Positions 15,706 to 41,763 of a DNA stretch of 64,000 nucleotides are shown here, in pieces. The notes under the pieces were generated by a model, which saw only the letters and a list, made by a program, of their open reading frames with translations, searched no databases and had not been told where the DNA came from. The DNA is from Alphaproteobacteria bacterium. GTDB lineage: Bacteria > Pseudomonadota > Alphaproteobacteria > Rs-D84. The position numbers and the translations under genes are program-made. The stretch covers positions 161,069 through 225,068 of the forward strand of contig SUUN01000001.1 in NCBI GenBank assembly GCA_015062495.1. Direction: 5' to 3'. The first letter of the stretch is position 1. Each line of letters begins with the position of its first letter.

Positions 15706-15725
15706 GTGAAAAAGAGAGAATTAAA

Positions 15726-18113
15726 TTGAAACGTTCATTTGTTGATTTTGTCCGTTTTTCTGCGCTGTTGATGGCGATGGCTGGTGTGTCAGTGGCCGAT
15801 GCCGCACAAGCGCCAAATCCACGTAATGCCGTTGCGGTTGGTGCGACTGGGCATCGTATGGCGGGGAATGTTGTTTCGCGTGGCGATGGGGATAACGCAC
15901 AAACGGTGATGGGGGCTGGGCGTACGTCGGCGCGCAGTGCGGTAAATAATGCACGAAATGGGTCGGCAGTCGCACGTTCGGCAACGGTGGCGCGATCGGC
16001 CGCAAATAATGCGCGCAGTGCGGTAAATGCCCGCAACGCTACAAATATATCGCGGGCGGCAACGGTGGCGCGTTCTGCGACCGGGAATGCGCGAATGGGT
16101 GCAAATGTTTCGAATTTGGGACTGGCGCGGGCGGGCGCACAGGCGCGTGCGACGGCGGTCTTTACCGACATTTCCAAGATTGGTGGTGGCTATGCTGCGT
16201 GTCGTGATGCATATGCGACATGTATGGACCAGTTCTGCGCCAATGCAAATGATACATATCGTCGCTGTTATTGCAGCGAGCGCTTTACCGAATTTCGTGA
16301 TACAGAATTAGCATTGGACGAGGCTAAGACCCTGTTAATGCAGTTTGAAGATAATAACCTGAATGCGGTGGATAAAACCGCAGCCGAAGTTGACGCAATG
16401 TACAGCGCAACAATTGGCGAAGCGGCAATAAAAAAAGATACCAGTGGCGCACAAAAAACACTGGATGCGATTGGTGATTTATTGTCTGGCAAGCGCAAGG
16501 CCAGCAGTGGCAACAGTAATTCGACATCCCTGGGGATTATGTCGTTGGATTTTTCAACAGGTGTTGATGATATCTGGGGTGGCGGTGGCGCGTCGTCCAT
16601 ATTTGATACAAATACGGGTGTCGATTTAACCTCGCTTGAGGGCAAGGCGTTATTTGATGCGTCGAACAAGCAATGCTTGCAGTTGATTACAGACAGTTGT
16701 GAAAACAGTGCAACACTGAATATGGCGACCAGTGCATATGGTATTATGATTACCCAGGATTGTAATGCGTATGAAAAGAAAATTGATTCCCAACGCGAGG
16801 CGGTTAAACAAACCGTGCGTCAGGCGGAAAAGATTCTGCGCGAAGCACGTCTGGAAGAATATCGTGCGCATAATTCCCAAGATGTTAATGAATGCCTGGA
16901 CAAGGTGCGGACATCAATGCTGGCGGATACCGCGTGTGGTGTGAACTATAAACGTTGTTTGGATTATAGTGGTGCATACGTCAATCAAACCACAGGCGAA
17001 GCAATTTACAGCGCACGTTTGTTTGAACTGGAAAATCTTATCACGTTAAGTAGCGCGGATGGTGATTTTGATTTGCTGGGGCAGAATGCTAATTTTGATC
17101 AGTTCCTGGACACCAAAAAGATGTTTGCAACGTCTGCGTTGGATACATGTCGTGATTTGTCAGATATTGTGTGGTCGGAATTCAAACGCAGTGCGTTGAT
17201 TGAAATTTCCCAGGCCCAGGATGAATTGATTGAAGCAACCAAGATGTCCTGTGTCAGTACAATGAAAGAATGTTACGACACACAATCTGGTGCGTTAAAG
17301 GATTTTGACGACACCACAGCCAAGGCCGCGGGCGCATTGTCGGCATACGCAGCAAAGGCAATGTGCGAAGAAAAGGTTGTTGCATGCGCCGCGTTGCACG
17401 GCGGACGCGAGAGTTGTAAATTTGACGTCAATGGTCACTTGACAGCAGGATCAAAGAATTGCGGACTGGCGGCGTTGTTATCGTTCGTGAATTCAGTTGA
17501 TAATGTTCGTGTGGCCGAAGGGTGCGCAACCGCAATTGATAATTATGTTCAAGAATTGTGCACGCCAACCACAGGCAACATGAAATTCCCATGGAATTGT
17601 CGTCGGATGAGCATGGGTGCGAATGATGACGCCGCAAGCAGTGCCGCCAACGCCAGTGTTGCAGCACATATTAAACAGTTCGCTGTGGACAATTGCAGTG
17701 ATCCGACGGCCACGGACAAGACCTATGACGCATTGCCACTGCAAACGCGTACCCAGGTTGAAAAGGCGATTGATGATATTCGTGAACAATTGGATTATCA
17801 ATTGATGGAACAGTGCGAAGATTTGGATGGTTATTGGTTAGAGGCAGACACAACCGATGGCACACTGTTAAAGGCGTTCTATTCCACGGCGTTCGGTGGA
17901 ACGGATACGGGATATGCGGTGTCAGTTGGGCGTTGCGTGGAAAATTCAACACGGATTCAGTGCCTGAATTATAACGATGGCGAAGAAACACCAATGGCGT
18001 CGTATGATCTGGCCAAGGATGAATGTACATTTACAGAGGCCTGGTATGAACAGCAGTGTGCGACAATTGGCGGATACTATGATAACGGCATGTGCTATGT
18101 AGGGAAAGAATAA
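15726..18113 (+). CDS. Large exported Cys-containing protein with Ala/Arg/Asn-rich N-terminal repeats
   Basis: About 795 residues. I choose the TTG at 15726 (ribosome site GAGAG, just after a promoter); the frame stays open to an ATG at 15672. The signal peptide is KRSFVDFVRFSALLMAMAG followed by SVADA. Residues 35-125 are low complexity, built from short ARSANNARS-type units. A Cys cluster follows (CRDAYATCMDQFC, then CYC), then helical regions with spaced CxxxxxxC pairs in the style of disulfide-bonded helical bundles, and a C-terminal Cys-rich part. I know no named family. The next exported gene overlaps its stop by one base, so they form a pair. Confidence 0.75.
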   Translation: MKRSFVDFVRFSALLMAMAGVSVADAAQAPNPRNAVAVGATGHRMAGNVVSRGDGDNAQTVMGAGRTSARSAVNNARNGSAVARSATVARSAANNARSAVNARNATNISRAATVARSATGNARMGANVSNLGLARAGAQARATAVFTDISKIGGGYAACRDAYATCMDQFCANANDTYRRCYCSERFTEFRDTELALDEAKTLLMQFEDNNLNAVDKTAAEVDAMYSATIGEAAIKKDTSGAQKTLDAIGDLLSGKRKASSGNSNSTSLGIMSLDFSTGVDDIWGGGGASSIFDTNTGVDLTSLEGKALFDASNKQCLQLITDSCENSATLNMATSAYGIMITQDCNAYEKKIDSQREAVKQTVRQAEKILREARLEEYRAHNSQDVNECLDKVRTSMLADTACGVNYKRCLDYSGAYVNQTTGEAIYSARLFELENLITLSSADGDFDLLGQNANFDQFLDTKKMFATSALDTCRDLSDIVWSEFKRSALIEISQAQDELIEATKMSCVSTMKECYDTQSGALKDFDDTTAKAAGALSAYAAKAMCEEKVVACAALHGGRESCKFDVNGHLTAGSKNCGLAALLSFVNSVDNVRVAEGCATAIDNYVQELCTPTTGNMKFPWNCRRMSMGANDDAASSAANASVAAHIKQFAVDNCSDPTATDKTYDALPLQTRTQVEKAIDDIREQLDYQLMEQCEDLDGYWLEADTTDGTLLKAFYSTAFGGTDTGYAVSVGRCVENSTRIQCLNYNDGEETPMASYDLAKDECTFTEAWYEQQCATIGGYYDNGMCYVGKE

Positions 18114-23013: not shown

Positions 23014-26000
23014 ATGGGAAGAAAGCGCTGTTTCCTGGGATTTTTCGCAACTTTATTTTTGGCATTATTTACCGTCAATGCGTTCGCAGATGGGTATTCG
23101 TGTCCGTCGTATAAGAAATATACGTCGTGTAATGCCGGATATTATCTGGATGGCGAGGATGTTGGAAACACGTGCGCGTCGTGCGCCGATGTGTGGTCGG
23201 GTTCAACATCGGATGGTGGTGAAAGCGTTGGGGCAACGGCATGCTATAAGACAATTACACTGAATAAGAATGGCGGTTCGGGGACTTTGAATGGAACAAG
23301 CGGTTCAGCAAACGCGACCCAAAAGTGTTATTATGGGGCGAACTGTGCCCTGCCGTCGGCGTCGGGGTTGACACAGAACACATACACATTTACAGGCGGA
23401 TGGGGAACAAGCGCATCATGTACCGCGACAACACAAAGTTTTGCATATACCGCCTTGTCTGGGACGTATTATGCTTGTAAAACCCAGAATAAAATCACAG
23501 CAACCGCAACCAACAAAAGCAAAGGATATGATGGAACGGCATTGACATGTAATGGCGTGTCGGTCAGTGTGCCAAGTAGTGGTGCAACTGTTATGTATGG
23601 TACAACCAGCGGTACGTATAATCTGACATCTGCGCCAACCATCACAAACGTTAAGGACAGCAAAACGATTTATTATCAGGTAACCGCGGATAATTATGTT
23701 TCGACAACAGGCAGTTTTGAATGTTCGATTACACCTGCGGCGGGCAGCACAGTAATTAAGGACAACGGTACAACTGTATCACAGGGCAGCACCGCATTCC
23801 CAGGTACAAAGGCACTGACTGTGACCTGTGCGGGGGGTGCAACAATTTCATCACCAACAAGCGGGACTGCAACCGTTGCCAGTGTATCAAACAGCGGCAA
23901 CACTGTAACGTTGACACCTTTAAAGACAGGCAGTTCTGTTATAACGATTAAATGTCCTGCAACAGACAATTATCAAGCGTCGAGCGCAACGTATACATGG
24001 ACGGTTAATCCAGGCACAATTACAGCAACTGTGTCGAATCCAAACAAGACATATGATGGCAGCGCGTTAAGTTGCAGTGGTATCAGTAATGTCAAACCAA
24101 CAAATGCCACGGTTACATATGCAGAAAAAAGCGGTACGGCGTGTAGTACATACAGTTCGACAATCCCAAGTCGTACAAATACGGGCACAACAAATGTGTG
24201 CTATAAGATTGCATTGGCGAATTATAGCGACAAGACTGGTGAATTTACATGCACGGTCAATTCTACGACAGGCAGTGTAGTCATAAAAGATGGCAGTACC
24301 GTTGTGACCAATGGTTCGGGCAGCACGACATACCCAAACAATAAAACATTGACGGCCACATGCCCCGGCAATGAAGCGACGCCAAAGGTCAGCAGTGGTA
24401 CAACATCTGTGGCAACGGCAAGCATTAGCAATAGCACAATCACATTAAAACCAGTTGCCGCTGGTAAATCTGTGATAACCGTCAATTGTGATGCGTCGAC
24501 GAATTATGCCGCATCCAGTGCGACATATACCCTGACTGTAAATCCTGGCACATGCAGTATAAGTGTCAATCCAACCAGCGGTAAAATTACATATCCCACA
24601 ACAACCAGTACGTTTACTGTTGACAAGGGTTCTTGTAATGGCAATTTAAGCGCAAAATCCAGCAACGACAGTGTCGCAACAGCAACAGTAAGTGGCACAA
24701 CCGGAACGGTAACTTATAAGTCTGCGGGTGAAGCGACGATTACTGTGACCGCGGCACAATCGGGGCAATATGCAGCCGCAACCGCAACGTACACGGTACA
24801 AACAATACCAGGAACAATTACAGCAACCAGTTCGAATGATTCCAAGACATATGATGGCAGCGCCCTGACCTGTGATGGTAACATCAAGGTAACAGCGCCA
24901 ACGTCTGGATATACAATTACATATGGTATAAAGGACGGCGTCTATGATTTAGATTCTGCGCCAACAATCACAAATGCTGGTTCACAGGAAGTATTTTATA
25001 AAATTACTGCGAACAACTATGCGGCAAAAACAGGGTCGTTTAACTGTACGGTTGCCCAGGCGGATAATACATTGACGCTGAGTGCATCAGGTGGCACGAT
25101 GGCGTATAATGCAAAATCAACATTCACCGTTACCAAAAACGTCAGCGGTGGCACATTAAGTGTAAAATCCAGCAACGAAAGTGTTGCAACGGCCAGTCTG
25201 AGTGGTACAACAGTCACATTGACCAGTGGGGCAAACTATGGTTCGTCCACGATTACGGTCAGCAGTGCGGCGACCACAAATTATAAAGCGGCAAGTGCGA
25301 CATATACACTGGTCGCCAACAAAGGTATAATTACACTGAACAACCAAAGTGCAGACAGCGCAGGCACGGCAAAAATCTATCAGATATATAATGATAATGT
25401 CTATTTGACCACATGGGGTCAGGATGCGATGACGACGTCTGCGAACGCAATTATTAAGCCAACAAAAACAGGACATACATTTGCAGGGTATTATAAGAGC
25501 ACCAGTTATGCATCCAACGAACAGTATATTGGTGCAAATGGCAACATAACAGCAACTGGTTTGACCGCGGGCAAGGCTTTGCAGTCCAATGGTACATGGT
25601 ACGCAAAATGGGATGCAAATAAATATACTGTTACATATGCGTGTGGTGATGGCGCAACGGGTACACCACCGGCGAATGGTACACCCACATATAACCAGAA
25701 CTTTACACCGGCGGCAAATACCGGTTGCGTGCGCGATGGATATACGTTTAATGGATGGAATGACGGAACGACAAACCGCGCAGCGGGCACGGCGTTCAAG
25801 TGGACATACACATCCAACAAGACCTTTACCGCACGGTGGAAACTGAATGGTGCAACCGATATTAAATATAACGAAAACGGCGGAACAATTAACGATTATG
25901 GCAATGCGATTGCGTGTAATGCAGAAAGTGCGGCGTTCGCCCTGCCGACAAATGTGACACGACCGGGTTATACGTTCCAGGGATGGTATAACAATTCCGG

Positions 26001-29000
26001 TTTAACGGGCACAGCGGTTAAGACGGTTTCAGCAGGGGCATGTACAGGACAATTAGAATACTGGGCCGACTGGGATGCGTGTAATGAAACAACGGCCAAG
26101 GCATGTAATTGCGGCGAAAATAAATATCCATTGAATGGAACGTGTACAAGTTGTTCTGTGTCATGTTCGAACGTTTCGGGGTATACAGAAGGAAACTATA
26201 ATGTATGTAATGCCCAGACGGACAGTGTGTGTTATCGCGCATGTGTTGTGTCTGATATCAAAGGCGCAACGGCCGTGTCGGGTACTGTGACCAAGGGTGG
26301 CGTTAACACCTGTGTGGCGACAACATGTGGCGACGAATATTATAAGTCTGGTAATGGGTGCGAAAAATGTCCAGAAAACGCCCAGGAATGTGGCGGTGGT
26401 GACGCGTCGTGGGAATGTGATACGGGGTATGAAAAAACCGCCACTGGCGCGGGGTGCAAGCCCAAGACGTATACAGTAACACTGAACGACCAGGGCGCAA
26501 CGACGACCGGCACAACATCTGTGACGGCGACATATAATCAGCCAATGCCGGCAATTACAGTGCCTGCGAAAACAGACTATGTGTTTGGTGGATATTGCAC
26601 AGAAAAAGAAGGTGCAGGTGATTGCTATTATAACGACAGTGGGACAAGTGCACTGAACTGGAATATAGATGATGCAAACGAAACACTGTATGCATATTGG
26701 ATTGTTGACTTCTTTGACTGTGAAGCCGGCAAAGCCGCCGATGGCACGACATGTAGCGAAGGATCGTTCTGTCCAGGTGGTAAGGTAAGCGCAAGTCAAA
26801 CACATTTGTGTGAACAGGCGTGTCCGCCCGCGACCGGCAAAACTGTGACGTCGCCAGCGGGTGCAACGGCATCAACCCAATGTACAGCCAGTGGCGCGGT
26901 TAATATTACCGCCGAAGATACGACAAAATATCCAGACGCCACAGGAACAGGTACGGAAACCTGTGCTTGGAACGGCGAAACCTATGCTGCTTCGTGTAAT
27001 ACTGTGCCAGAGACGTGTATTGGTGGATTCTGGCGACCAACAGATAACAGTCCGTTCTGTAACCCTGTTGGGTATGGATACTATCGTGGTGGCAGTATCG
27101 GAATCCGTACACGGAATGCGTGTACAGATTTGAATGGTGCGAACAGCACGGTAACGACATCAACGGAAACATCTTCGGCGGCAACGGCATGCTATAACGT
27201 ATGTTCCGAGGTTAAAACAACCGATGGGAATGGTGTTCGAACACCAGAAAATGCCACAGAAAACTTTAACGGGACGACAATTCCGGCCTGTTCGTACACA
27301 ACGCAGTGTACAGATGGCTATGAACCAAGTGGCGATGTATGTGTGGCAAAAACTATAAAAGTCACATTGAATCACAATGGCGGAACATCGGGCGTAGATG
27401 CGATTTACCTGAAATATGGTGTTGCATGGTTGGATGCAAATGGCAATACGATTACAACGATTGAAACGCCGAAAAAAACAGGTGAAACATTTGGTGGATA
27501 TCTGTCGGGGAATACTCAGGTTGTGAATAATGCAGGCGCGATTGTTGCATCAACAATGCTGTTTAGCACACCAACAACAATTACGGCATCTTGGTCAGAT
27601 AACCCAACAAAAGTCTGCAAAGCAGGAACATACTATCCGGGCACAGGCGCAGAATGTGCAACATGTCCGGCCGGCAGTTATTGCGGGGGTGTGTCTGCAG
27701 TCCAAGAGACGGGCGAAGCAGGACGTAAAAAATGCGTTGACCTGAATGTAAATTATACTGCGGCGACCGATGCAAATGGGAATACACTGACGGTGTCAAT
27801 TGGCTCGGCCACGGGTTCGGACAGTGCCGATGATTGTTTCGCAACAAATATTGTTTATACCCCAAATCTGTATACAGCAGGTGGCCAGACATGTATGTAT
27901 GACGCGACCACAAAATCCTATTCCGCAGATTGTACAGATCGTGTTGTGTACACCTGTGCGGGCGGGTACGCATTGGCAAGCGATGATGCGGTTGCATGTA
28001 CGCCGGTTGGATATGGTTATTACAGCCCGGACAAGTCGTTAAGCGCAACACAGTGTCCGTTAAATACAGAAACAAACACGCGTGGAACAACGCAAAACAA
28101 AACAACCGCATCGGCCGAGGGGTGCGTTATGGATAACCTGTGGTTCGAAAATGATACCAGTGGGCAACGTCGTCAGTGTTTCTGGTCAGACACGTCCAAG
28201 GCATACGACAGACAGTGTCAACAATCGACAGTTGTGTCGTGTATAGCAGGTTATTGGTATGATGCGTCACTGTTTGCAAGTGATTCAACTGCCGAGAAGT
28301 ATTGTGTGCCGGTTGGCGCGGGCGCGTGGAGTCCAGCACAATCCGCATGTAATGGCGAAGATGCCCAACCAACATCCGCAGGGTGTTCAACAGTGAAAAA
28401 CACCTGTCCGGGCGCAAATCCGCAGACCAAGATAGATGATGCAACAGGCGAACAGAAGACCACTGCATCGTCGATATCAGATTGCGTTCTGGCGTGCGAA
28501 GATCCAGGATTATACTGCGATAATAACGAAGCCAAAGAGTGCGAAGCCGGTTCATACTGTACAGGCGGGGTTAAGTATTCATGTGCGGATGCGACAGATG
28601 GCGAATATACATTATCTGCCGCAGGCAGTGATGAAATTGGCGATTGTTATAAGGAACAGACAGGATGCGCGTGTCGTGACATTTGTACAGATTCGTCTGT
28701 AGTTAAAGAGTTATATCCGAATGCTAATTCTTGCCAATTAGGAGCATTAACTACATTTGCTGGTGTTGTTTACTACAACGCACCAGAATCGTGTGTGGTT
28801 TTGGCAACTGGTGAGGCAGAGTTGTGTCCTTTGGCACAAGCTAGGTGTAAGAACACATACTATTTTGATGGTGATTTGAACGGCGATTGGTCTTGCAAAA
28901 CCTGTTCTGCCTTAGGTGGTGGGTATTCTAAATCTAATAGCACGCTGGGGGCCGTGCCGGCAACATCACAAAATGGTGCTAAGGCATGTTATAAGGTTGT

Positions 29001-32000
29001 ACCGTTGAATTGTACAGCACCAATCTGTCCGACTGCTGATACAGGTGCTTTTTGTGAATATGATTCTTCGGACACGCTTGGTGCAGCAGGATGGTTACAT
29101 TACGGGACGGAATCCGCAATACCTGCTGTTGGCAAGTCTAACTTCGTATGTCCGGCGACGGGGGATAATGGTTCGTACTTTGAATGCTTGACGGGATATG
29201 ACAAGAATGAAAGTGCGGATATCGATCCGACCGATGGGTCTGCGTCTGATCCGTCTGAATTGTGTACGCCACATGTTTATACCATAACACTGGATGCGAA
29301 TTATGATGATGGGGTGGATAATGTTATCTATCAAAAGTACAAGGATGGTTGGTATTCCGACCAGGCGGCAGATGCAACAGATAAAATTACCAAAGCACCT
29401 GTACACACACGCGATAATTATACATTGCAGGGATACTATACCGCACCTGCATTTGGTGGGAATATGGTGATTGATGCGACAGGTGACTTTATCGTCAGTG
29501 ATGCAATCAATGCAAAGTACACCGCAGATCAAACATTCTATGCAATATGGTCGCAGAATATGTATAAATGTCAGGCAGGCAAATATTATGAAGCCAATGC
29601 AGATGGTTCAGACAGCGTTTTGAAAGACTGTGTCGCGCCATATTATTGCCCAGGCGTTAGAGAGGTTGCGGTTGGTGAGACCGGTTGTCGCAGCGATTGC
29701 CCGACACCACAGGTAACCCCAATTAAAACACCGGGTACGATTGCGGGTAGTCAGTCCAGCGCAACCAGTTGCTATGCAAACTTTGCAACGAATCCGTTGA
29801 CAGGTGCAGAGTTGGCAAATGGTGATGGCACATGGGTTTGTCAGTACAGTGGCTCATCAGATCAGGGCAGATATGCGAACTGTAATATCATTGTCAATGC
29901 ATGTGACGCAGGATATTATAATCAGTCTGGGACGGTGACATGTACAACGCCAGATAGCGGTTATTATAGCCCAGCGGATGATTTGATTCAAACAAAGTGT
30001 CCGCCAAAGCAAAATACAAACTATACGATTGGCACGGATGTGTTGCGCGATTCCAAGGATGACTGTTATGTTGTCTGCAAATCCGACATACCGACAGTGG
30101 AACACAGTACCAGTGTGGATGTGACCGCAGGTGAAGCATTCAGCAAGATGTTCTGGTCTGAAAAAGATAATGCGTATCCGGCATGTCATTATACGGTTGA
30201 GTGCGAAACAGGTTACGAGGCTGTATCGGGTGTCGATCCAAAGTGTAAGGCCAAGAGCTATGATATTACGCTGAATCTGAACGGCGGTTCGGGCGATATA
30301 GCGGATACAGTACGTTGTACATTTGATGGTGGGGATTGTGCCCTGCCCGCAACAAGTGTGTTGAAGCGTGACGGATACAACACTGCCAACAAGTGGTGCG
30401 TAAATGCAAATGGCACAGGTGCGTGCTATACAGCGGGTGCGATTGCCAATGGTAATGTTTCCGCAAATGGGACAAACACCGTACTGTATGCGATTTGGGA
30501 ACCAGCGGTGTTCAAAATCACCCTGAGTGCACCAGACGCAGAAACAAACGCAGAGCAAGGGCCAGTATACCTGAAATATGCGACAGGTTGGTTCAGTGAT
30601 GCAGCAGCGACCAAGCCCATTACATCGATTGGGACAAACCTGCCAGGCAGAGGTACGTCGTACATGTTTGCAGGGTACAAATTGAACGATCAACCGATTA
30701 TCGATGCAAATGGTACGCTGTCGGGGTCAAGCAATGCACTGACGGCGACGACCAAGGACGCAACCGCCACAGCATGGTGGACACTGGGCAGTACATATTG
30801 CGAACCGGGTTATTACTATTCAGGTAATGGCAGCGAGTGCAAGATATGTTTGGCAAACCACTGGTGTCCAGGTGGTAGGTTTGGCACAACCGAAAATGGT
30901 GAGGTTGCTGGCCTGAATCGATGCGAATTAGACGGTTTATCCACAGGTGGGACAAGCGCAACAAATGTTGGGGTTTGCTATAAAGAAGGTATGGCGTACA
31001 CCACATATATTGATGCCGATAAAACATATCCACGCGCGACAGGTACATGGACATGTAATTTTGAAACCATTGGATATACAAACTGTCATGAAGATACAGT
31101 GGATATTACATGGTGCGCGGGCGGACACTGGTATGACGAAAGCCAGAACGCAATAGACTGTGTAGTGGTTGGTGCGGACAATTGGAGCGAAGAAGCCGAA
31201 TTGAAAAAGCACGCATGTCCAGACGGTGGTAATACCAACGGTGCGACGATGTCTGATTCGTTGACAGACTGTCAAAAACGTGTTGAAACATATGTGTCTG
31301 ACACTAATAACGCCAAGGGCACGCATGTGTGCAGTGCGCGTTCAGATGGCGCGTCGGTAATATACGACCAAAAATGTCAGGCAGATACTATTGAAATCAC
31401 ATGGTGTGCGGGTGGTTATTGGTATGACGAGTCTCAGACAAATACTGATTGTGTGTTGGTGGGCGTTGGACATTACAGTCCAGAATCAGACAAAGCCCTG
31501 TACGATTGTCCAGCGGGCGGAACAACGACAATCAATAATGCGTCCACACCGCATGGTGTATGTCAAAAGACAAAGGTATATCCGGGTATTGAATACACTG
31601 GTCCGGCGGTGTACGGAACGGGTGTACATGGATGTCTGTATGACCAGGCGGCAGATGGCATGATGTTTGGCGACGAAAAGTCCGACGGATATGTGTCGTG
31701 TGGCCAGATTACCATGACAGAATGTAATCCAGGGTATTGGTGGAAAAATGGCGACACCGTATGTAAAGAAGTTGGATATAACAACTTTGGTCCAGTGGCC
31801 GACGCAAACAACAGTGGCCATCCAACAGGCCTGGGGACATGTCCAGACGGCGGGTTGACCCAGGGCACAAAGAGCGTTGATGCAACGGCATGCTATCTGG
31901 AAAAACTGGCGTGTGATATCACGAATGGAACGGGTGAACAAACACGTTTCTATGACAGCGCAGTGGTATCAGATACTGCTGGTTACAATGTGTGTCGCGC

Positions 32001-33255
32001 AAATGGTCAGGTGGCAGAATGTGATATGATGTGCGCAATCACTGGATGCGATACAGGATTCTCGTTGGTAGAGGGGGCATGTATAAACTGTCCTGTGGAT
32101 AATGTATGTACCACCGAAGAAGGTCAGCGTTCGTGCGCCGTTGCGACCAATGGCACACATGCCAAGGCGGATGCCGGCACAACAGATGTTGCGTATTGCT
32201 ATGCGGAATGTGCGCTGGGTAAAAACGCGTATCAGATGGGTGGACGCGATTACTATGGTGCGAATGTCCCGGACACCTGTGAAATCACAGTCTGTGCGGC
32301 GGGGTATACACTAAGCAATGGCGTATGCGTAGAATGTCCAGCAGGCATGATATGCAATCCGTCATCAGGGGATGATGCGCCAAAGTCTTGTGAAACGCTG
32401 ACGGGCGGCGAATATCCAGAATCAGAATTGAATTCTGACAGCATTAACGACTGTTACAAGGTTTGTGAACCATATGCGGTTGTTAATGGAACGGCCGTAC
32501 CGGTGGCGGATCGGGCGTACTATCCAGCGGATTGCGAATTCGCAGGCAAATCATCAAGTGGTAATCCATGCGAGATTGTAGATGGTGTATGTATCGAATC
32601 GTCGTGCAATTATAACTTTGAAATGGACAATGGTATCTGCAAGCCATGCGCACGCGAACATGCGATTTCATATAAACCAAATGGAAACTGTATCGTAGAA
32701 TCGTGTGCGAGCGGATATCATCCAAATGGCCAGCAATGTGAAAGCAACGTTGTTGAATGCAGTGCACCAAATGCGATATCTGCGACACAAACATGGGATG
32801 CATCACGCAATGCGTTTGGCGCATGCATGATAACCGAATGTGCAGATGGGTATCACTTGGGTGCGAATGCGTGTCAGGTTGATGAACAGGTATGTGAACT
32901 GGAACACGGGGTTGGTGTGCGTGAATGGAATCACAAGACCAACACATGGGGCGAATGTATTGCAACCAAGTGCGATCCAGGATATACAAACGAACCAGGA
33001 CAGACAAACGAACTGTGGAAACAATGTGGCCGTTGCAACAACATGTACAGTGCAAATGGCGAGTTGGCCGCCAGCAGTTATGTCCAGGGCTGTGAAATCG
33101 CGGCATGTATGTATCAGGGTGAATTGTATACGCTGGAAAACAACGAATGTCGTCTGATTTGTGATACATATTCGGACGAAACCGGTTCAAGACGCTGGAA
33201 TGCGTCACGCAAGAAATGTGAACGCACATGCGCGCCTGGATATACATCGTGGTAA
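23014..33255 (+). CDS. Giant exported Cys-rich repeat protein (3413 aa)
   Basis: The start at 23014 follows GAGAGGAAGAA and a promoter; the frame is open from 22981. Signal peptide about 1-25, then a motif shared with the next gene (GYSCPSYKKYTSCNAGYY). About 150-760: repeated MBG/bacterial-Ig-like units with YDGxALxC and SATYTxTVNPG motifs. About 765-1020: InlB-B-repeat-like units (GYTFNGWNDG, GYTFQGWYNN). About 1020 to the end: hundreds of residues of Cys-rich receptor-like modules (CPAGSYC, CDxGY) with further isolated InlB-like units near 1152, 1449, 2090 and 2417. No C-terminal anchor, sorting signal or autotransporter barrel is visible. Likely a surface or secreted structural or adhesive protein, stabilised by disulfides; role inferred. 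A segment at about 28690-29150 has different codon use. Confidence 0.85.
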   Translation: MGRKRCFLGFFATLFLALFTVNAFADGYSCPSYKKYTSCNAGYYLDGEDVGNTCASCADVWSGSTSDGGESVGATACYKTITLNKNGGSGTLNGTSGSANATQKCYYGANCALPSASGLTQNTYTFTGGWGTSASCTATTQSFAYTALSGTYYACKTQNKITATATNKSKGYDGTALTCNGVSVSVPSSGATVMYGTTSGTYNLTSAPTITNVKDSKTIYYQVTADNYVSTTGSFECSITPAAGSTVIKDNGTTVSQGSTAFPGTKALTVTCAGGATISSPTSGTATVASVSNSGNTVTLTPLKTGSSVITIKCPATDNYQASSATYTWTVNPGTITATVSNPNKTYDGSALSCSGISNVKPTNATVTYAEKSGTACSTYSSTIPSRTNTGTTNVCYKIALANYSDKTGEFTCTVNSTTGSVVIKDGSTVVTNGSGSTTYPNNKTLTATCPGNEATPKVSSGTTSVATASISNSTITLKPVAAGKSVITVNCDASTNYAASSATYTLTVNPGTCSISVNPTSGKITYPTTTSTFTVDKGSCNGNLSAKSSNDSVATATVSGTTGTVTYKSAGEATITVTAAQSGQYAAATATYTVQTIPGTITATSSNDSKTYDGSALTCDGNIKVTAPTSGYTITYGIKDGVYDLDSAPTITNAGSQEVFYKITANNYAAKTGSFNCTVAQADNTLTLSASGGTMAYNAKSTFTVTKNVSGGTLSVKSSNESVATASLSGTTVTLTSGANYGSSTITVSSAATTNYKAASATYTLVANKGIITLNNQSADSAGTAKIYQIYNDNVYLTTWGQDAMTTSANAIIKPTKTGHTFAGYYKSTSYASNEQYIGANGNITATGLTAGKALQSNGTWYAKWDANKYTVTYACGDGATGTPPANGTPTYNQNFTPAANTGCVRDGYTFNGWNDGTTNRAAGTAFKWTYTSNKTFTARWKLNGATDIKYNENGGTINDYGNAIACNAESAAFALPTNVTRPGYTFQGWYNNSGLTGTAVKTVSAGACTGQLEYWADWDACNETTAKACNCGENKYPLNGTCTSCSVSCSNVSGYTEGNYNVCNAQTDSVCYRACVVSDIKGATAVSGTVTKGGVNTCVATTCGDEYYKSGNGCEKCPENAQECGGGDASWECDTGYEKTATGAGCKPKTYTVTLNDQGATTTGTTSVTATYNQPMPAITVPAKTDYVFGGYCTEKEGAGDCYYNDSGTSALNWNIDDANETLYAYWIVDFFDCEAGKAADGTTCSEGSFCPGGKVSASQTHLCEQACPPATGKTVTSPAGATASTQCTASGAVNITAEDTTKYPDATGTGTETCAWNGETYAASCNTVPETCIGGFWRPTDNSPFCNPVGYGYYRGGSIGIRTRNACTDLNGANSTVTTSTETSSAATACYNVCSEVKTTDGNGVRTPENATENFNGTTIPACSYTTQCTDGYEPSGDVCVAKTIKVTLNHNGGTSGVDAIYLKYGVAWLDANGNTITTIETPKKTGETFGGYLSGNTQVVNNAGAIVASTMLFSTPTTITASWSDNPTKVCKAGTYYPGTGAECATCPAGSYCGGVSAVQETGEAGRKKCVDLNVNYTAATDANGNTLTVSIGSATGSDSADDCFATNIVYTPNLYTAGGQTCMYDATTKSYSADCTDRVVYTCAGGYALASDDAVACTPVGYGYYSPDKSLSATQCPLNTETNTRGTTQNKTTASAEGCVMDNLWFENDTSGQRRQCFWSDTSKAYDRQCQQSTVVSCIAGYWYDASLFASDSTAEKYCVPVGAGAWSPAQSACNGEDAQPTSAGCSTVKNTCPGANPQTKIDDATGEQKTTASSISDCVLACEDPGLYCDNNEAKECEAGSYCTGGVKYSCADATDGEYTLSAAGSDEIGDCYKEQTGCACRDICTDSSVVKELYPNANSCQLGALTTFAGVVYYNAPESCVVLATGEAELCPLAQARCKNTYYFDGDLNGDWSCKTCSALGGGYSKSNSTLGAVPATSQNGAKACYKVVPLNCTAPICPTADTGAFCEYDSSDTLGAAGWLHYGTESAIPAVGKSNFVCPATGDNGSYFECLTGYDKNESADIDPTDGSASDPSELCTPHVYTITLDANYDDGVDNVIYQKYKDGWYSDQAADATDKITKAPVHTRDNYTLQGYYTAPAFGGNMVIDATGDFIVSDAINAKYTADQTFYAIWSQNMYKCQAGKYYEANADGSDSVLKDCVAPYYCPGVREVAVGETGCRSDCPTPQVTPIKTPGTIAGSQSSATSCYANFATNPLTGAELANGDGTWVCQYSGSSDQGRYANCNIIVNACDAGYYNQSGTVTCTTPDSGYYSPADDLIQTKCPPKQNTNYTIGTDVLRDSKDDCYVVCKSDIPTVEHSTSVDVTAGEAFSKMFWSEKDNAYPACHYTVECETGYEAVSGVDPKCKAKSYDITLNLNGGSGDIADTVRCTFDGGDCALPATSVLKRDGYNTANKWCVNANGTGACYTAGAIANGNVSANGTNTVLYAIWEPAVFKITLSAPDAETNAEQGPVYLKYATGWFSDAAATKPITSIGTNLPGRGTSYMFAGYKLNDQPIIDANGTLSGSSNALTATTKDATATAWWTLGSTYCEPGYYYSGNGSECKICLANHWCPGGRFGTTENGEVAGLNRCELDGLSTGGTSATNVGVCYKEGMAYTTYIDADKTYPRATGTWTCNFETIGYTNCHEDTVDITWCAGGHWYDESQNAIDCVVVGADNWSEEAELKKHACPDGGNTNGATMSDSLTDCQKRVETYVSDTNNAKGTHVCSARSDGASVIYDQKCQADTIEITWCAGGYWYDESQTNTDCVLVGVGHYSPESDKALYDCPAGGTTTINNASTPHGVCQKTKVYPGIEYTGPAVYGTGVHGCLYDQAADGMMFGDEKSDGYVSCGQITMTECNPGYWWKNGDTVCKEVGYNNFGPVADANNSGHPTGLGTCPDGGLTQGTKSVDATACYLEKLACDITNGTGEQTRFYDSAVVSDTAGYNVCRANGQVAECDMMCAITGCDTGFSLVEGACINCPVDNVCTTEEGQRSCAVATNGTHAKADAGTTDVAYCYAECALGKNAYQMGGRDYYGANVPDTCEITVCAAGYTLSNGVCVECPAGMICNPSSGDDAPKSCETLTGGEYPESELNSDSINDCYKVCEPYAVVNGTAVPVADRAYYPADCEFAGKSSSGNPCEIVDGVCIESSCNYNFEMDNGICKPCAREHAISYKPNGNCIVESCASGYHPNGQQCESNVVECSAPNAISATQTWDASRNAFGACMITECADGYHLGANACQVDEQVCELEHGVGVREWNHKTNTWGECIATKCDPGYTNEPGQTNELWKQCGRCNNMYSANGELAASSYVQGCEIAACMYQGELYTLENNECRLICDTYSDETGSRRWNASRKKCERTCAPGYTSW

Positions 33256-33256
33256 G

Positions 33257-33281
33257 AATCCCCCGTTTGGGGGATTTTTTA
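33257..33281 (+). terminator. Terminator after the 3413-residue gene
   Basis: Hairpin ATCCCCC-gttt-GGGGGAT followed by TTTTT. Confidence 0.85.
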
Positions 33282-33365
33282 TCCCGCTAAATTTTTATTT
33301 GTATTCAGATTTGCGTATCGAATCGTGGTCAAATTAAAAAAAATATATGTTTGGGTATTTTTTAC

Positions 33366-33395
33366 TTGTGCTATCCCCTATGTTTTTTCTATGAT
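33366..33395 (+). promoter_or_regulatory. Promoter of the 1968-residue protein
   Basis: TTGTGC (33366-33371), 18-nt spacer, TATGAT (33390-33395); the GTG start lies 23 nt past the -10, nearly identical to the layout at 22962-23014. Confidence 0.6.
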
Positions 33396-33418
33396 GACAG
33401 AGTAAAGAGAAAAAGAAA

Positions 33419-36400
33419 GTGGGAAGAATGTCTAGATTTCTGCGTTTTTGCGCGTTTTTATCCGTATTGTTTTTCACAACAAATGTGTTTGCCGCGGGGT
33501 ACTCATGCCCGACGTATAAGAAATATACGTCGTGTAATGCCGGGTATTATATGACCGTAAATGGTACATATAACGGCACACCTGCGGTTGGTAATGCGTG
33601 TACCATTTGTCCGGCTGGGTCGTATTGTACAGGTGGCACGGCGAATAAAGTCGCGTGTGCACGTGGCTCATACACAAACGCAACAGGAAAAAGTGCCTGT
33701 ACGGCGTGTAGCGCAGGAACGACCACAAGCGGCACAGGACAAACCAGCTGTAATGCAACATGTTCAAACAATAATAGCTATGATAATTCATGGGCGACGC
33801 CATCATGGTCGGCAAATACTGTTACCAACTTATGTAAAATTAGTAATTGTAAGGCTGGTTCAAAGTACAGCTCAACGGCTTATACATATTATACGGGCAC
33901 TTGTACAGCTTGTGGCAGTGGCACATATATGGCCAGCAGCGCCCATACCAATACAAGTTGTACGTCATGTACGACAACGTCGGGGTGGACAACAACGACC
34001 AACAGTACAGGTTCGACCGCCTATACCGCATGTTATCAGACACAAACACCGGCAAATTGCGCAAGTGGTACAATTAAACGTACCGCCAGCAGCATAAGCG
34101 GAACAACAATTACGTATGGTACAGCATCTGTAACCAGTGCACTGTCATCCAGTCCGGGTTATTATGTAAATGGTACATCATGTAAGGTCTGTGCCAATGG
34201 TAAGTTCTATGGTGGTGGTACGGCGACATCATGTACATCGTGTCCGTCGTTGACCAGTGGGTACAGTTATGTATCAGGGACTGGTTGGACGTCGTACAGC
34301 AGTTGTAAAGAAACCAAAGCCTATAGCAGTGTCAGCGGTAATTGTTATAGTGGTGCATTGACCAAGACCGCAACCAGTGCAACAGCATGGGGTACGGCGG
34401 TAAGTACACTGACCGCAAAGGGTGGTTACAAGGTTAGTGGCAGTGGAGACAGCACAACGTGTTCTGCATGTGGTTATGGTAGTTATAGCTCGAATGGTAA
34501 TGATACCACATGTGATGCGTGTCCGACAGCAGATAGTGGTTGGACTATGACCACAACAAGCAATGTTGCAACTGGCTACAGCGCATGTTATCAGTATCAA
34601 ACACCAACTAACTGTGCGAGCGGTAGTGTTAAGAAAGTTGCATCCAGTGCGACGGCATGGGGAAGTACTGTATCTGTTCATAGTGCCCTGTCCTCTAAAC
34701 CTGGGTATTATGTAAGTGGCACATCATGTACAGTATGTGGCAATGGTACGTTCTATGGTGGTGGTACGGCGACATCATGTACATCTTGTCCAACGTTAAC
34801 CAGTGGATATAGCTATGTGTCTGGCACAGGTTGGGATGCGTACGGCGATTGCAAAGAAACCAAAGCCTATAGCAGCGTCAGCAGTAATTGTTATAGTGGT
34901 GCATTGACCAAGACCGCAACCAGTGCAACAGCATGGGGTACGGCGGTAAGTACACTGACCGCAAAGGGTGGTTACAAGGTTAGTGGCAGTGGAGACAGCA
35001 CAACGTGTTCTGCATGTGGTTATGGTAGTTATAGCTCGAATGGTAATGATACCACATGTGATGCGTGTCCGACGGCGGACAGTGGATGGACAGCGTATTC
35101 AACCAGTAATGTTTCGACAACATACAGCGCGTGCTATGAATATAAGTCTGGGACAAACATCAGTTCATATTGTTCTGCGGGTCAGTTGCGTCGTGCCGCG
35201 TCAAGTGCAAGCGCGTATAGCACCACGGTTACAATATCCACCGCATTGCAGGCCAAGGCTGGTGCGTATGTAAATGGTCAGACCTGTACACAGTGTAGTG
35301 GTGCGGTGTTTAGTGCCGGTGGTGCTGCAACAAGTTGTACAGCCTGCCCTGCACAGACAGATGGATGGACACGTGCAAGCGGTACAGGTTGGGATAGTTA
35401 TACAGATTGCTATCAGACCAAGGCGGCAACAAGCGTAAGTAGCTATTGTTATAGCGGTCAATTAAAGCAGATTGGCGCAAGTGCTACAACATGGGCAACG
35501 GCAACTGTATCTACAGCATTTACTGCAGACAAAGGTTCGTATGTAACAGGTAGTGGCGCAAATACGACCTGTAGTCAGTGCGCAGCGGGTACGTATCAGG
35601 GTACAGACGGCAGTACAACGACAAGTTGTAGCGCATGTACAGGTCGTACAAAGTACAGTGCAAAAGGTGCTGCGGCATGTTCGGATGTTGGAACTGGGTA
35701 TTTTACAACTGGGTGTAATAGTAGTGGCAATAACTGTACAGGCCGTACACAGTGTAGTGGTTCTACGTACTGCGTAAGCGGTGTTCAGAATAACTGTCCA
35801 TCAGCAGAAACAAACTGGACATTGGGTACTGGCACAGGTTGGAGTGCGGTAACAAGTTGCTTTGAAACACGTGCTGCAACAAACGTGAGCTCGTATTGTT
35901 CTGCGGGGCAGTTGAAGAAAAACGCAACAAGCAGTGCAACATGGCCAACAAGTGCGACGATATCAACTGCGTTCCAGGCCAAGGCTGGTGCGTATGTTAA
36001 TGGTCAGACATGTACACAGTGCGCGGGGGGGGAATACAGTGCCGGTGGTACTGCAACAAGTTGTGGCACGATTAAGGCCAACTGTTATGGCGGTGCGGGT
36101 TCGTCAACCGAATGTCCAAACAGTTGTACTGCAAATTCGTCCAGTCCGGCAGGTTCAGATGCAATCAGCGATTGTTCGTGTAATGCTGGTTATTCTGGAA
36201 ATGCCGCAACATCTGGTGGTACATGTACCGCCTGTGCCAAGGGAACGTATAAAAGTGCGTCTGGCAATACAACATGTTCGTCGGCTGGTTCTGGGTACTA
36301 TGTTGATACAACGGCTGCAACATCACGCAAGGCGTGCAGTGCATTGGATTCAACCAAGACAGACGGAACGTATTCTTCGGTCAGTCCGTATGATGCCAAT

Positions 36401-39325
36401 ACGACCTGTCGATTTAAGCAGAACGCCCAAACAGTTCCAACATACTGTGCGACCAAGACCAGCAATACAATGTCGTATTCTGGTACTGCATGGCCAGCGA
36501 ACACCTATGCCGTGACGGCCAAAGCTGGTTCGATTATCAGTGGCAACAACAGTGCGTCTGCAACGTGCAGTCAGTGTGGCGCGGGTAAATATAGTGCCGG
36601 CGGTACTGCAACAAGTTGCGGAACGTGTGCAAACTGGACCTACTCCTCTGCAGGTGCGACAACATGTACGGCGTGTTTAGATGTTGAATCTGGTTGGACC
36701 AAGGCAAGTGGTACAGGTTGGACATCGTACAGTAGCTGTAAAGAAACCAAGACAAGTACTGCGATAAGTTCGTACTGTTCGGCTGGTGTTTTGACCAAAG
36801 CCCAGAGCAGCGCAACTGCGTGGGGTAGCGCATCTATTACGACTGCGTTAAAGGCGGCGGCAGGTGCGTATGTTAATGGTCAAACGTGCAGTCAGTGTAG
36901 TGCCGGTACGTATCAGGCGACCAGTGGCAGTACAGCGACGAGCTGTAGCACCATTACAGATGGTTGCTATGGTTCGGCGGGTGCGACTAGCGCGTGTCCG
37001 AATAACTGTAATGCATTGACTGCGCCAGCGGTAACAGGTGGTACGTTCAGCTCGGTCACACCACGTAGCGCAAATACAGCATGCCGCTATGTTGCACCAA
37101 GCAAGACAGCAACAGGATGTTCAAGTATTACAGCGAACACTGTATCGTATAGTGGAACTGCATGGGGTACTAACTTCTATACGACTAAGGCATCAAAGGG
37201 TTATCGTGTAAGTGCGACCGGTAATACCTCTGCCCCGGCGTGTACTGCTTGTGCGTGCGGTACGTATCAAGGAACAGACGGCAGTACAGCGACAAGTTGT
37301 ACAACAACGACGGCTGGTTACTATGCGAATGGTACTGGTAATAGTAGTCAGACACAGGCAGACGCTGGTTACTATGCAGCAGCAGGTGCATGCGATCAGA
37401 CGGTCTTAAATAATGGTTGTTGGGGTGCTGCTGGTGCAAGTACTGCGTGTCCGAACAACTGTAATGCATTGACTGCACCAGCGGTAACAGGTGGTACGTT
37501 CAGCTCGGTCACACCGCGTAGCGCAAATACATCATGCCGCTATGTTGCACCAGACAAGACAGCAACAGGATGTTCAAGTATTACAGCCAACACTGTATCG
37601 TACAGCGGTAGCGCATGGGGAACTAACTTCTATACGACCAAGGCATCAAAGGGTTATCGTGTAAGTGCGACCGGTAATACCTCTGCCCCGGCGTGTACTG
37701 CTTGTGCGTGCGGTACGTATCAAGGAACAGACGGCAGTACAGCGACAAGTTGTACAACAACGAGTGCGGGGTACTATGCGAATGGTACTGGTAATAGTAG
37801 TCAGACCAAGGCAGACGCTGGTTACTATGCAGCAGCAGGTGCATGCGATCAGACGGTCTTAAATAATGGTTGTTGGGGTTCGGCTGGTGCAAGTACTGCG
37901 TGTCCAAACAACTGTAATGCATTGACTGCGCCAGCGGTAACAGGTGGTACGTTCAGCTCGGTCACACCACGTAGCGCAAATACATCATGCCGCTATGTTG
38001 CACCAGACAAGACAGCAACAGGATGTTCAAGTATTACAGCCAACACTGTATCGTACAGCGGTAGCGCATGGGGAACTAACTTCTATACGACCAAGGCATC
38101 AAAGGGTTATCGTGTAAGTGCGACCGGTAATACCTCTGCCCCGGCGTGTACTGCTTGTGCGTGCGGTACGTATCAAGGAACAGACGGCAGTACAGCGACA
38201 AGTTGTACAACAACGAGTGCGGGGTACTATGCGAAGGGTACTGGTAATAGTAGTCAGACCCAGGCAGACGCTGGTTACTATGCAGCAGCAGGTGCATGTG
38301 ATCAGACAAAGATTCAGGCAGGATGCTTTGGTGGCGAAGGCTCGGCCAGTGCATGCCCGAATTCATGTCCGGCAGCGGAATCTGGGTGGACGTTGGCAAG
38401 CACAACAGGCTTGAAAGTTGTGACAGATTGCGCGGAAATAACAACGCCATCAACCAGTGGCAGTCCGATTGCAACGATCTGTACGGCAGGTACGCTGACC
38501 AAGAAAGCAACCAATGCAACCACATGGGGCAGCGCGACGGCAAGTGGCCTGACCGCCAAGGCAGGACGCTATGTGAACGGAACAACATGTTCGGCATGTG
38601 CAGCGGGTACATATACATCCAGCGCGACAACTGCGACATCTTGTACGCCGGCGGCGACAGGATACTATGTAAGCGGGACAGAAGCCACATCACAGACAGC
38701 GTGCCCAGCGGGAACTTATCAGGGCAGCACAGGTAAAACAAGTTGTTCTGATGCGGTGGCGGGTACATATACCACAGGCTGTAAGGACACAACCAACAAC
38801 AAGGCCTGCACTGGAACATCGGTATGTTCAAACGGTACGTATTCTGATCAGAAAGCCAGTTCTTGTACGGCATGTACGACCGCCAAGGGTTATACCAACA
38901 GCGGCACAACAGCGTCAAGTCACGCAGGCGCAGCAAGCTGTAAAGTGACATGTGGCGCAGGACAATATGTAGCGTCCGCAGGTGCGGGATGCGTGAACGT
39001 TGGTGTTGACACCACAACAAATACTGGATACTGGGGCGCAGGTGGCACGGTTTCCCAGACTGCAACGCTGGGCCGCAACAAGTGCGACACCGGGTTGATT
39101 ACAACTGGTTCGGGCACAGGTGCGAACGAAGCGGCGGACTGTGGACGCAAGTTGCATGCGGGTGATAATGTGATTTACCTGCGCAGCGAGAGCCGCACAA
39201 CACCGGCACTGCGTGTCAAGGTTGGCGATAAAACGTTCTTTGGCGCGTTAAGTACAACTCTGTCGGGTGCGTTAAAGGTCAAGAATGGATCAACCGAGTA
39301 TTCAGTTGTAAATGATTATCAGTAA
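33419..39325 (+). CDS. Giant exported Cys-rich repeat protein (1968 aa)
   Basis: The likely start is the GTG at 33419 because the N-terminus (MGR) and upstream purine tract align with the 3413-residue neighbour; an ATG at 33428 is the alternative. Signal peptide about 4-25, then GYSCPTYKKYTSCNAGYY. The rest is built of GCC2/GCC3-like Cys modules (CPAGSYCTGG, CxxCxxGTY) rich in Ser, Thr, Gly and Ala, organised in 182- and 151-residue repeats, some nearly identical at DNA level. The last 55 residues (GDNVIYLRSESRTTPALRVK onwards) lack cysteine and form a distinct C-terminal domain. Probably surface-exposed or secreted; function unknown. Confidence 0.85.
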   Translation: MGRMSRFLRFCAFLSVLFFTTNVFAAGYSCPTYKKYTSCNAGYYMTVNGTYNGTPAVGNACTICPAGSYCTGGTANKVACARGSYTNATGKSACTACSAGTTTSGTGQTSCNATCSNNNSYDNSWATPSWSANTVTNLCKISNCKAGSKYSSTAYTYYTGTCTACGSGTYMASSAHTNTSCTSCTTTSGWTTTTNSTGSTAYTACYQTQTPANCASGTIKRTASSISGTTITYGTASVTSALSSSPGYYVNGTSCKVCANGKFYGGGTATSCTSCPSLTSGYSYVSGTGWTSYSSCKETKAYSSVSGNCYSGALTKTATSATAWGTAVSTLTAKGGYKVSGSGDSTTCSACGYGSYSSNGNDTTCDACPTADSGWTMTTTSNVATGYSACYQYQTPTNCASGSVKKVASSATAWGSTVSVHSALSSKPGYYVSGTSCTVCGNGTFYGGGTATSCTSCPTLTSGYSYVSGTGWDAYGDCKETKAYSSVSSNCYSGALTKTATSATAWGTAVSTLTAKGGYKVSGSGDSTTCSACGYGSYSSNGNDTTCDACPTADSGWTAYSTSNVSTTYSACYEYKSGTNISSYCSAGQLRRAASSASAYSTTVTISTALQAKAGAYVNGQTCTQCSGAVFSAGGAATSCTACPAQTDGWTRASGTGWDSYTDCYQTKAATSVSSYCYSGQLKQIGASATTWATATVSTAFTADKGSYVTGSGANTTCSQCAAGTYQGTDGSTTTSCSACTGRTKYSAKGAAACSDVGTGYFTTGCNSSGNNCTGRTQCSGSTYCVSGVQNNCPSAETNWTLGTGTGWSAVTSCFETRAATNVSSYCSAGQLKKNATSSATWPTSATISTAFQAKAGAYVNGQTCTQCAGGEYSAGGTATSCGTIKANCYGGAGSSTECPNSCTANSSSPAGSDAISDCSCNAGYSGNAATSGGTCTACAKGTYKSASGNTTCSSAGSGYYVDTTAATSRKACSALDSTKTDGTYSSVSPYDANTTCRFKQNAQTVPTYCATKTSNTMSYSGTAWPANTYAVTAKAGSIISGNNSASATCSQCGAGKYSAGGTATSCGTCANWTYSSAGATTCTACLDVESGWTKASGTGWTSYSSCKETKTSTAISSYCSAGVLTKAQSSATAWGSASITTALKAAAGAYVNGQTCSQCSAGTYQATSGSTATSCSTITDGCYGSAGATSACPNNCNALTAPAVTGGTFSSVTPRSANTACRYVAPSKTATGCSSITANTVSYSGTAWGTNFYTTKASKGYRVSATGNTSAPACTACACGTYQGTDGSTATSCTTTTAGYYANGTGNSSQTQADAGYYAAAGACDQTVLNNGCWGAAGASTACPNNCNALTAPAVTGGTFSSVTPRSANTSCRYVAPDKTATGCSSITANTVSYSGSAWGTNFYTTKASKGYRVSATGNTSAPACTACACGTYQGTDGSTATSCTTTSAGYYANGTGNSSQTKADAGYYAAAGACDQTVLNNGCWGSAGASTACPNNCNALTAPAVTGGTFSSVTPRSANTSCRYVAPDKTATGCSSITANTVSYSGSAWGTNFYTTKASKGYRVSATGNTSAPACTACACGTYQGTDGSTATSCTTTSAGYYAKGTGNSSQTQADAGYYAAAGACDQTKIQAGCFGGEGSASACPNSCPAAESGWTLASTTGLKVVTDCAEITTPSTSGSPIATICTAGTLTKKATNATTWGSATASGLTAKAGRYVNGTTCSACAAGTYTSSATTATSCTPAATGYYVSGTEATSQTACPAGTYQGSTGKTSCSDAVAGTYTTGCKDTTNNKACTGTSVCSNGTYSDQKASSCTACTTAKGYTNSGTTASSHAGAASCKVTCGAGQYVASAGAGCVNVGVDTTTNTGYWGAGGTVSQTATLGRNKCDTGLITTGSGTGANEAADCGRKLHAGDNVIYLRSESRTTPALRVKVGDKTFFGALSTTLSGALKVKNGSTEYSVVNDYQ
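34311..34527 (+). repeat. Near-identical internal repeat, copy 1 (546-bp period)
   Basis: This 217-bp stretch recurs at 34857-35073 with only a few base differences, exactly 546 bp (182 codons) later, inside the 1968-residue gene. Confidence 0.85.
34857..35073 (+). repeat. Near-identical internal repeat, copy 2 (546-bp period)
   Basis: Second copy of the stretch at 34311-34527; the codons flanking it are similar in protein but diverged in DNA. Confidence 0.85.
36961..38319 (+). repeat. Three tandem 453-bp coding repeats
   Basis: Units 36961-37413, 37414-37866 and 37867-38319 each encode 151 residues (GCWGxAGASTACPNNCNALT and onward). Units 2 and 3 are almost identical in DNA, unit 1 slightly diverged. 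A fourth unit starts at 38320 but diverges after about 16 residues. Confidence 0.9.
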
Positions 39326-39328
39326 AAA

Positions 39329-39353
39329 AAATCCCCCGTTTGGGGGATTTTTA
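39329..39353 (+). terminator. Terminator after the 1968-residue gene
   Basis: Hairpin ATCCCCC / GGGGGAT with A run before and T run after; same stem as the terminator at 33257. Confidence 0.85.
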
Positions 39354-39391: not shown

Positions 39392-39586
39392 TAAATAAAA
39401 GTTTAGCGCAGTTAATATAAACATACTTTTTGCAAAAAAAGTATGTCATCCCGGTGCTCGATACCGGGACCCAGGTCATAGAAACCTTAGTATTTGTGCG
39501 CGTTTTACGCGCATGACCTGGGTTCTGGGGTCAAGCCCCAGAATGACAAAAACGTAAAACGTTTTTGTTAACTAAACTTTTATTTA
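39392..39586. repeat. Inverted-repeat element in a gene-free stretch, MITE-like
   Basis: The 322 bp between the giant gene and recN hold no credible gene. A 15-bp perfect inverted repeat, TAAATAAAAGTTTAG (39392-39406) and its complement (39572-39586), bounds a 195-bp block. Inside are a hairpin ACATACTTTTT/AAAAAGTATGT (about 39421-39447), a palindromic unit 39445-39547 whose ends read GTCAT and ATGAC with CCCGG-rich and CCCAG-rich stems, and a hairpin about AAAAACGT/ACGTTTTT (39548-39566). It has no coding capacity. It could be a non-autonomous mobile element, a REP-like palindrome or nested terminators for recN. Confidence 0.6.
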
Positions 39587-41307: not shown

Positions 41308-41763
41308 TTATAGCGGTTTTACAGGTAATTTTTCCAGTGAAAAATCATGCGTCCATAATATGTATGCGCTGATTTTGTAATCTGGGTAAAGGGCGCGCAA
41401 AAGCGTCATATACTCGCGCAACTGAATTATGTATTTATCACGAAACGTATTATGATTTATGTCGGTTTTATAGTCCAAGATGGAAATCGATTTGGTGTCA
41501 TCGTCAATGCGCAATCGATCGATGCGGCGACTGATGAAACGGTTGTTTATTGTGCCGGCAATCGGGACTTCAACACGCGAATTTGGCGCAAAAAATGGCA
41601 CTAAATCAGGATTGTTTTGTATTAACTGTATCAACACAGCATCACCGCGCGTGTTTTGACCATCAATGACAATATGCTGTAATCGGCCATGCATTTGTGT
41701 GCCATGCGCCGTGGCGTGCATTGCGGAATCGTGCGCAGATAAAATATTATGCAATATCGTCAT
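41308..41763 (-). CDS. PD-(D/E)XK nuclease domain of AddA, encoded as a separate ORF
   Basis: A 151-residue protein matching the C-terminal nuclease domain of AddA: GTQMHGRLQHIV, RVEVPIAG, FISRRIDRLRID, the catalytic SILDYKT motif and a QLREYMTLL helix (QxxxY type). It starts 17 nt inside the end of the helicase ORF in a different frame (41763 versus the stop at 41747). Active-site residues look intact, so it is not an obvious decay product. It may work as a separate subunit, be joined by programmed frameshifting, or reflect an assembly error. Confidence 0.8.
   Translation of the reverse strand: MTILHNILSAHDSAMHATAHGTQMHGRLQHIVIDGQNTRGDAVLIQLIQNNPDLVPFFAPNSRVEVPIAGTINNRFISRRIDRLRIDDDTKSISILDYKTDINHNTFRDKYIIQLREYMTLLRALYPDYKISAYILWTHDFSLEKLPVKPL

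Follow-up and report, generated by a model that had tools for sequence, protein, structure and literature searches.

Giant genes are found in Omnitrophota and in other suspected predators. V. cholerae TcpF and ETEC CofJ are secreted by type IVb pili and have, at the mature N terminus, a signal that a minor pilin binds, and such T4bP-SS motifs have been described as family-specific (PMC9565799). Genomes of the order Rs-D84 are described as reduced, and its members as probable symbionts or parasites with a proposed dependence on hosts; Candidatus Enterousia, in which many pathways of biosynthesis are missing, is believed to live off other cells (PMC12306168). The window analysed here, a stretch of 64,000 nucleotides in a 900-kb, 3-contig genome, comes from this gut bacterium, in whose very small genome two giant genes take up 16 kb. 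Their products, P1 and P2, fall into two separate families, so far undescribed and restricted to the lineage, of giant exported proteins that are modular and rich in Cys; literature searches returned no description of them.

The two adjacent genes for products of 3413 and about 1968 residues, reported in an earlier note on this DNA, are both present as intact ORFs, encoding 191 cysteines in P1 and 136 in P2. An RBS-like sequence, GAGGAAGAA, lies just 5' of the P1 ATG at 23014 and makes a good ribosome-binding site, and the start codon of P2 is either the GTG at 33419 or the ATG at 33428. Because the same strong terminator-like hairpin ends each gene, P1 and P2 are probably separate transcription units. 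In the source genome and in the related genome G029, the P1 gene comes after gpmI. The features of the two genes, in window coordinates, are as follows.

23014..33255, + strand: P1, giant exported Cys-rich repeat protein of 3413 aa (uninterrupted ORF, ATG start)
23014..23088, + strand: inferred P1 signal peptide, MGRKRCFLGFFATLFLALFTVNAFA (basic N-region, hydrophobic core and A-x-A site, by sequence)
23092..23148, + strand: P1 N-block, GYSCPSYKKYTSCNAGYYL
23263..25530, + strand: P1 Ig-like (Big_2-like) region, low in Cys (sub-threshold Big_2 match)
25861..26007, + strand: P1 List_Bact_rpt (InlB B-repeat-like) unit, residues 950-998 (PF09479)
26470..26646, + strand: second P1 List_Bact_rpt unit (PF09479, 6.4e-07)
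30811..33252, + strand: P1 conserved C-terminal Cys-rich region, ending ...CERTCAPGYTSW
33257..33279, + strand: intrinsic terminator-like hairpin 3' of P1, AATCCCCCGTTTGGGGGATTTTT
33419..39325, + strand: P2, giant exported Cys-rich repeat protein of 1968 aa (uninterrupted ORF)
33419..33493, + strand: inferred P2 signal peptide, MGRMSRFLRFCAFLSVLFFTTNVFA (by sequence)
33497..33553, + strand: P2 N-block, GYSCPTYKKYTSCNAGYYM
36215..36337, + strand: best P2 Ephrin_rec_like (GCC2/GCC3-like) unit, residues 933-973 (PF07699)
36960..38307, + strand: P2 453-bp (151-aa) tandem repeat, 3.0 copies, 95% match
39140..39322, + strand: P2 C-terminal domain, CtD, 61 aa, CGRKLHAGDNVIYLRS...YSVVNDYQ (alignment A3, AlphaFold2 model, C-terminal position)
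39330..39352, + strand: intrinsic terminator-like hairpin 3' of P2, identical to that of P1

A palindromic intergenic element (TCATCCCGGTGCTCGATACCGGGACCCAG..., 39446-39560), with one copy in the window, lies 3' of P2. At 41308-44362 a UvrD-type helicase ORF (871 aa) is overlapped by a 151-aa PD-(D/E)XK nuclease ORF, and the two may be a single AddA-like gene broken by a frameshift.

The mix of repeat modules previously ascribed to the pair is borne out for two kinds of unit. The InlB-B-like units of P1 match List_Bact_rpt (68.4 bits against a curated cut-off of 27, E = 5.8e-19), and GCC2/GCC3-like units of the Ephrin_rec_like type occur in four stretches of P2 (49.8 bits against a curated cut-off of 23.1, E = 2.8e-13). 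The Ig-like assignment stays sub-threshold, with a single Big_2 match in P1 at 19.3 bits against the Pfam cut-off of 22.8, and the proposed MBG modules have no Pfam match in P1 or P2. The C-terminal 800 residues of P1 are ~35-53% identical in most relatives, with the middle lost and the Ig-like region largely gone; most P1 orthologs are missing this region, there being little or no match over most of its length. The P1-type end (...CERTCxPGYxxW; the last 58 aa of P1 were searched) is present in 20 of 39 genus genomes, on open frames spanning about 500-4470 aa. In many relatives the P1 gene is flanked by helicase/ATPase-like and FAD-dependent oxidoreductase-like genes, both named by eye from sequence.

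The tandem repeat of P2 was absent from the earlier description. In the P2-like proteins of relatives, stretches of at least 40% identity cover 5-40% of P2; the SecA of G006 is 96% identical to that of the source genome, yet coverage there is 40%, and in the other relatives it is 5-22%. P2-like genes stand at several sites, for instance between tolA and secA in G006, G003 and G020. The corresponding position in the window (6862-7968) holds a DUF2817 gene, where several relatives have a P2-like giant gene. In G032, a 1722-aa low-Cys exported protein with no Pfam match (L051 898-6066) adjoins a P2-like gene.

No Pfam or NCBIfam family covers CtD. The diversity of a first alignment (A1) was too high for scanning. 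A confident AlphaFold2 model, built on a 62-sequence family alignment (A3), shows six strands arranged as three hairpins, and its block means are 93-96 for most of the core; CtD modelled by itself and with no alignment scored poorly (pLDDT 52). A Foldseek search of the PDB gave no match at E<=0.001, a second look aligning only 33 chains, mostly over the Cys-rich part, and a faint resemblance to Cpn10/GroES was dropped at a profile comparison probability of 8% over 32 columns. A CtD-region profile, consisting of CtD and about 57 preceding Cys-rich residues, has matches in 144 of the 149 genomes from the genus and in 14 of 23 from the rest of the family; elsewhere in the order it matches none of 18 genomes, 12 of them represented by summary output only. 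Positions were counted with a core-only profile, the profile that includes the upstream Cys repeats having given a misleading count of internal CtDs. The core-only profile finds 80 ORFs with one copy each, at the extreme C terminus in 70, followed by another module in seven, and near the N terminus in three. A hydrophobic N-terminal segment is present in 67 of the 72 CtD ORFs that are complete at the 5' side, and the median Cys content of CtD proteins is 6.2%, versus 1.1% in other ORFs. Searches with CtD led to relatives in Candidatus Enterousia and among other gut Alphaproteobacteria; no CtD was found in viral contigs.

The two families share a block at the start of the mature protein, and the motif GYSCP[ST]YKKYTSCNAGYY does lie directly after both signal peptides, as the earlier note had it, with 2 occurrences in the window against 0.09 expected. 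The 31-bp identity within it (23108-23138 and 33513-33543) is likewise exact, and is the sole exact match of at least 18 bp between the P1 and P2 genes. A conserved function of this DNA stretch was rejected, as the codons differ in other species. Further exported proteins of the lineage also carry the N-block, the opposite of the complete absence that had been set as a test of the original proposal. In most P1-type proteins the block begins no more than a few residues from the predicted cleavage site; of the CtD proteins examined, about half show this placement and about half lack the block. The idea of an N-terminal shared block thus holds for the mature N terminus of both families and fails as an exclusive placement: an internal copy (about residue 637) is found in an 815-aa protein of the source genome, a type of conserved exported protein whose internal copy is seen in many genus genomes.

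Exported proteins of ~700-850 aa with CMDQFC-type motifs are encoded at 15672-18113 of the window and at L046 3370-11025; this family has several paralogs in the source genome, no Pfam match, and an internal N-block in one member. Other small Cys-rich exported modules recur (L058, L073, L111, L119, L207, L208), often as proteins of ~140-240 aa, with FRxxLYxxxG and GxYxFTxxCxY among the examples of their ends.

Similarity of the N-block between the P1 and CtD families is higher within a genome (0.697) than between genomes (0.616; permutation p about 0.001), in a sample of 16 pairs with families assigned by us and shared ancestry handled by label shuffling alone. The flanks show no such P1-CtD concordance (signal peptides, p=0.56; the 30 aa after the block, p=0.24), and leaving out G000, G011 and G027 weakens that of the block (p=0.03). 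In these three genomes the DNA itself is alike between families, which favours gene conversion. In G021 and G022 the same shortened N-block occurs in two families with different codons, which favours co-variation at the level of protein. The concordance as a whole points either to a partner that both families share or to gene conversion over short tracts. Judged from sequence, the N-block appears to be a module common to unrelated families that co-varies within genomes, a point that goes beyond the earlier note.

In agreement with that note, the window has no gene for an anchor or for secretion next to the pair. Among the type IVb-pilus parts encoded by the source genome are a secretin, preceded by a TcpQ gene, as well as T2SSE, T2SSF, PilO and a prepilin peptidase; VirB4/VirB11-like genes, a DsbA-like oxidase and TolC proteins are also present. 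In this genome P1 and P2 are encoded on contig C1 and the secretin on contig C2, which places the two giant genes outside the pilus operon. The conserved secretion or anchoring gene that the note proposed to look for did not emerge as specific to the family: nearly all genomes have a type IVb-pilus secretin, a prepilin peptidase and TolC, regardless of the N-block; secretin and A24 peptidase are each found in 36 of 39 genus genomes. The N-block is missing in nine of 35 genus genomes, all of which but G009 keep the secretin. A specific secretin/N-block co-occurrence was therefore rejected, since a gene present with or without the block does not discriminate. A dedicated Omp85/TPS exporter was also rejected, most genomes having a single Omp85 protein of BamA size. 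In G010 and G023 the secretin gene is immediately followed by a gene for a protein with both N-block and CtD, and in G027 by one for a CtD-like protein; this adjacency is suggestive only, because the slot after the secretin holds varied exported genes. Between the pilus secretin gene and plsY, different exported genes occur by species (L174 9982-12569; L062, L175-L193).

Signal-type N termini, a high Cys content and the DsbA-like oxidase in the genome argue for export and for disulfides; the repeat modules, conserved ends, fast-diverging and partly tandem-repeated bodies, lineage-wide distribution and proposed host dependence of the lineage fit contact proteins. P1 and P2 are likely to be surface or secreted contact proteins, adhesion or contact being the predicted role. 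The fuller reading, in which they are Sec-exported, disulfide-rich, surface-displayed or released contact proteins (adhesin-like) of Candidatus Enterousia, has about an even chance of being right. One partner, a docking or secretion receptor serving both families, would recognise the N-block where it is exposed, at the start of the mature protein; CtD in P2 and the W-ended cap in P1 would be terminal modules for folding, retention or assembly; and the variable repeat bodies may bind other cells or mucus. For passage across the outer membrane, the near-universal type IVb-pilus secretin is the best candidate, weakly supported by analogy with TcpF and CofJ. As for the undescribed surface system that was first proposed, the families, which no Pfam or NCBIfam entry covers, are indeed undescribed, exported and probably of surface type; they do not form one two-gene system, as the P1 and P2 families have different C-terminal ends and usually different loci.

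How the N-block came to be shared can be read in other ways. P1 and P2 may be ordinary repeat adhesins with generic export, the N-block being the first cysteine repeat (a cap) spread by short-tract gene conversion, which we regard as somewhat unlikely. The block has Cys and runs into GCC2-like repeats, the 31 identical base pairs of P1 and P2 are matched by near-identical DNA in the G027 and G011 pairs, and internal copies exist. Against this reading, the block holds its mature-N-terminal place in two unrelated families, shortened blocks are common to families despite different codons (G021, G022), and signal and post-block segments lack P1-CtD concordance. The internal copy in the 815-aa-type protein of many genus genomes bears on a different possibility, that the N-block is a homotypic assembly module attaching the giants to this exported protein. 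P1 and 815-type blocks do match within genomes (p=0.0095), but CtD and 815-type blocks show no significant concordance (p=0.24), and there are genomes with strong differences (G010, G022); we regard homotypic docking as distinctly improbable.

That the giants are cargo of a type IVb pilus, with the N-block as a T4bP-SS read by a minor pilin and exit through the PilN-like secretin in the manner of TcpF and CofJ, is unlikely, though it would account for an N-terminal block with aromatic residues in genomes where the machinery is near-universal, and for the N-block and CtD gene adjoining the secretin in G010 and G023. Against it, P1 and P2 are encoded on another contig than the secretin, which is also found without the block; the N-block has no literal match to the T4bP-SS motif (FxxxYxSxS, SxGGAFT or YGF); and a cargo of 2000-3000 aa is far above the size of TcpF. 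No pilin or minor pilin was recognised in the stretches read, no prepilin-like ORF being seen in those of the source genome, and weak N_methyl matches occur in nine of 39 genomes. A more specific proposal, which we put forward as rather improbable, is that unrelated giants share the N-block as a short species-specific address tag and that a single co-evolving receptor in the envelope, perhaps the tip of the type IVb pilus, reads it. The position of CtD at the C terminus of large repeat proteins would also fit contact-dependent effectors of the polymorphic kind, in which CtD would be the active part, a reading that is highly improbable, since CtD is conserved across the family where a polymorphic toxin has a variable C-terminal domain, and no toxin family was convincingly matched.

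Under the preferred reading as contact proteins, giant, fast-changing exported proteins with conserved ends, present across the lineage, are concrete candidates for the contact of Enterousia with its partners, and the shared N-block tag offers a testable handle on their export. Were the address tag real and the pilus tip its receptor, the type IVb pilus would serve a symbiont with a reduced genome as an all-purpose route of export for its giant contact proteins.

Among known systems, neither P1 nor P2 matched a Pfam or NCBIfam model for T9SS, PEP-CTERM or LPXTG sorting signals, and P1 matched no anchor signature. The C-terminal beta-barrel translocator of autotransporters (type V) has no Pfam match either, P2 ending in a 61-residue six-strand domain. 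With the giants of Omnitrophota, the likeness lies in very long predicted proteins, an uncultured lineage and a proposed host-dependent lifestyle. TcpF and CofJ resemble P1 and P2 in having a Sec-type signal (in P1 and P2 by hydropathy and an A-x-A site in the sequence) and a short segment with aromatic residues at the start of the mature protein, with type IVb-pilus parts in the genome and a pilus-adjacent gene in some relatives. The differences are that the published motifs are unmatched, P1 and P2 are far larger, and their genes lie away from the pilus operon; the N-block and the TcpF/CofJ signal are alike in place and aromatic content and unlike in motif. P1 shares clear units in an exported repeat protein with List_Bact_rpt/InlB B-repeat surface proteins (PF09479, TIGR02543), whereas these units are a small part of P1, which is mostly Cys-rich with lineage-specific termini. 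Similarly, P2 shares four stretches with Ephrin_rec_like (GCC2/GCC3-type) repeat proteins, but here the units sit in a bacterial exported protein that begins with the N-block and ends with CtD.
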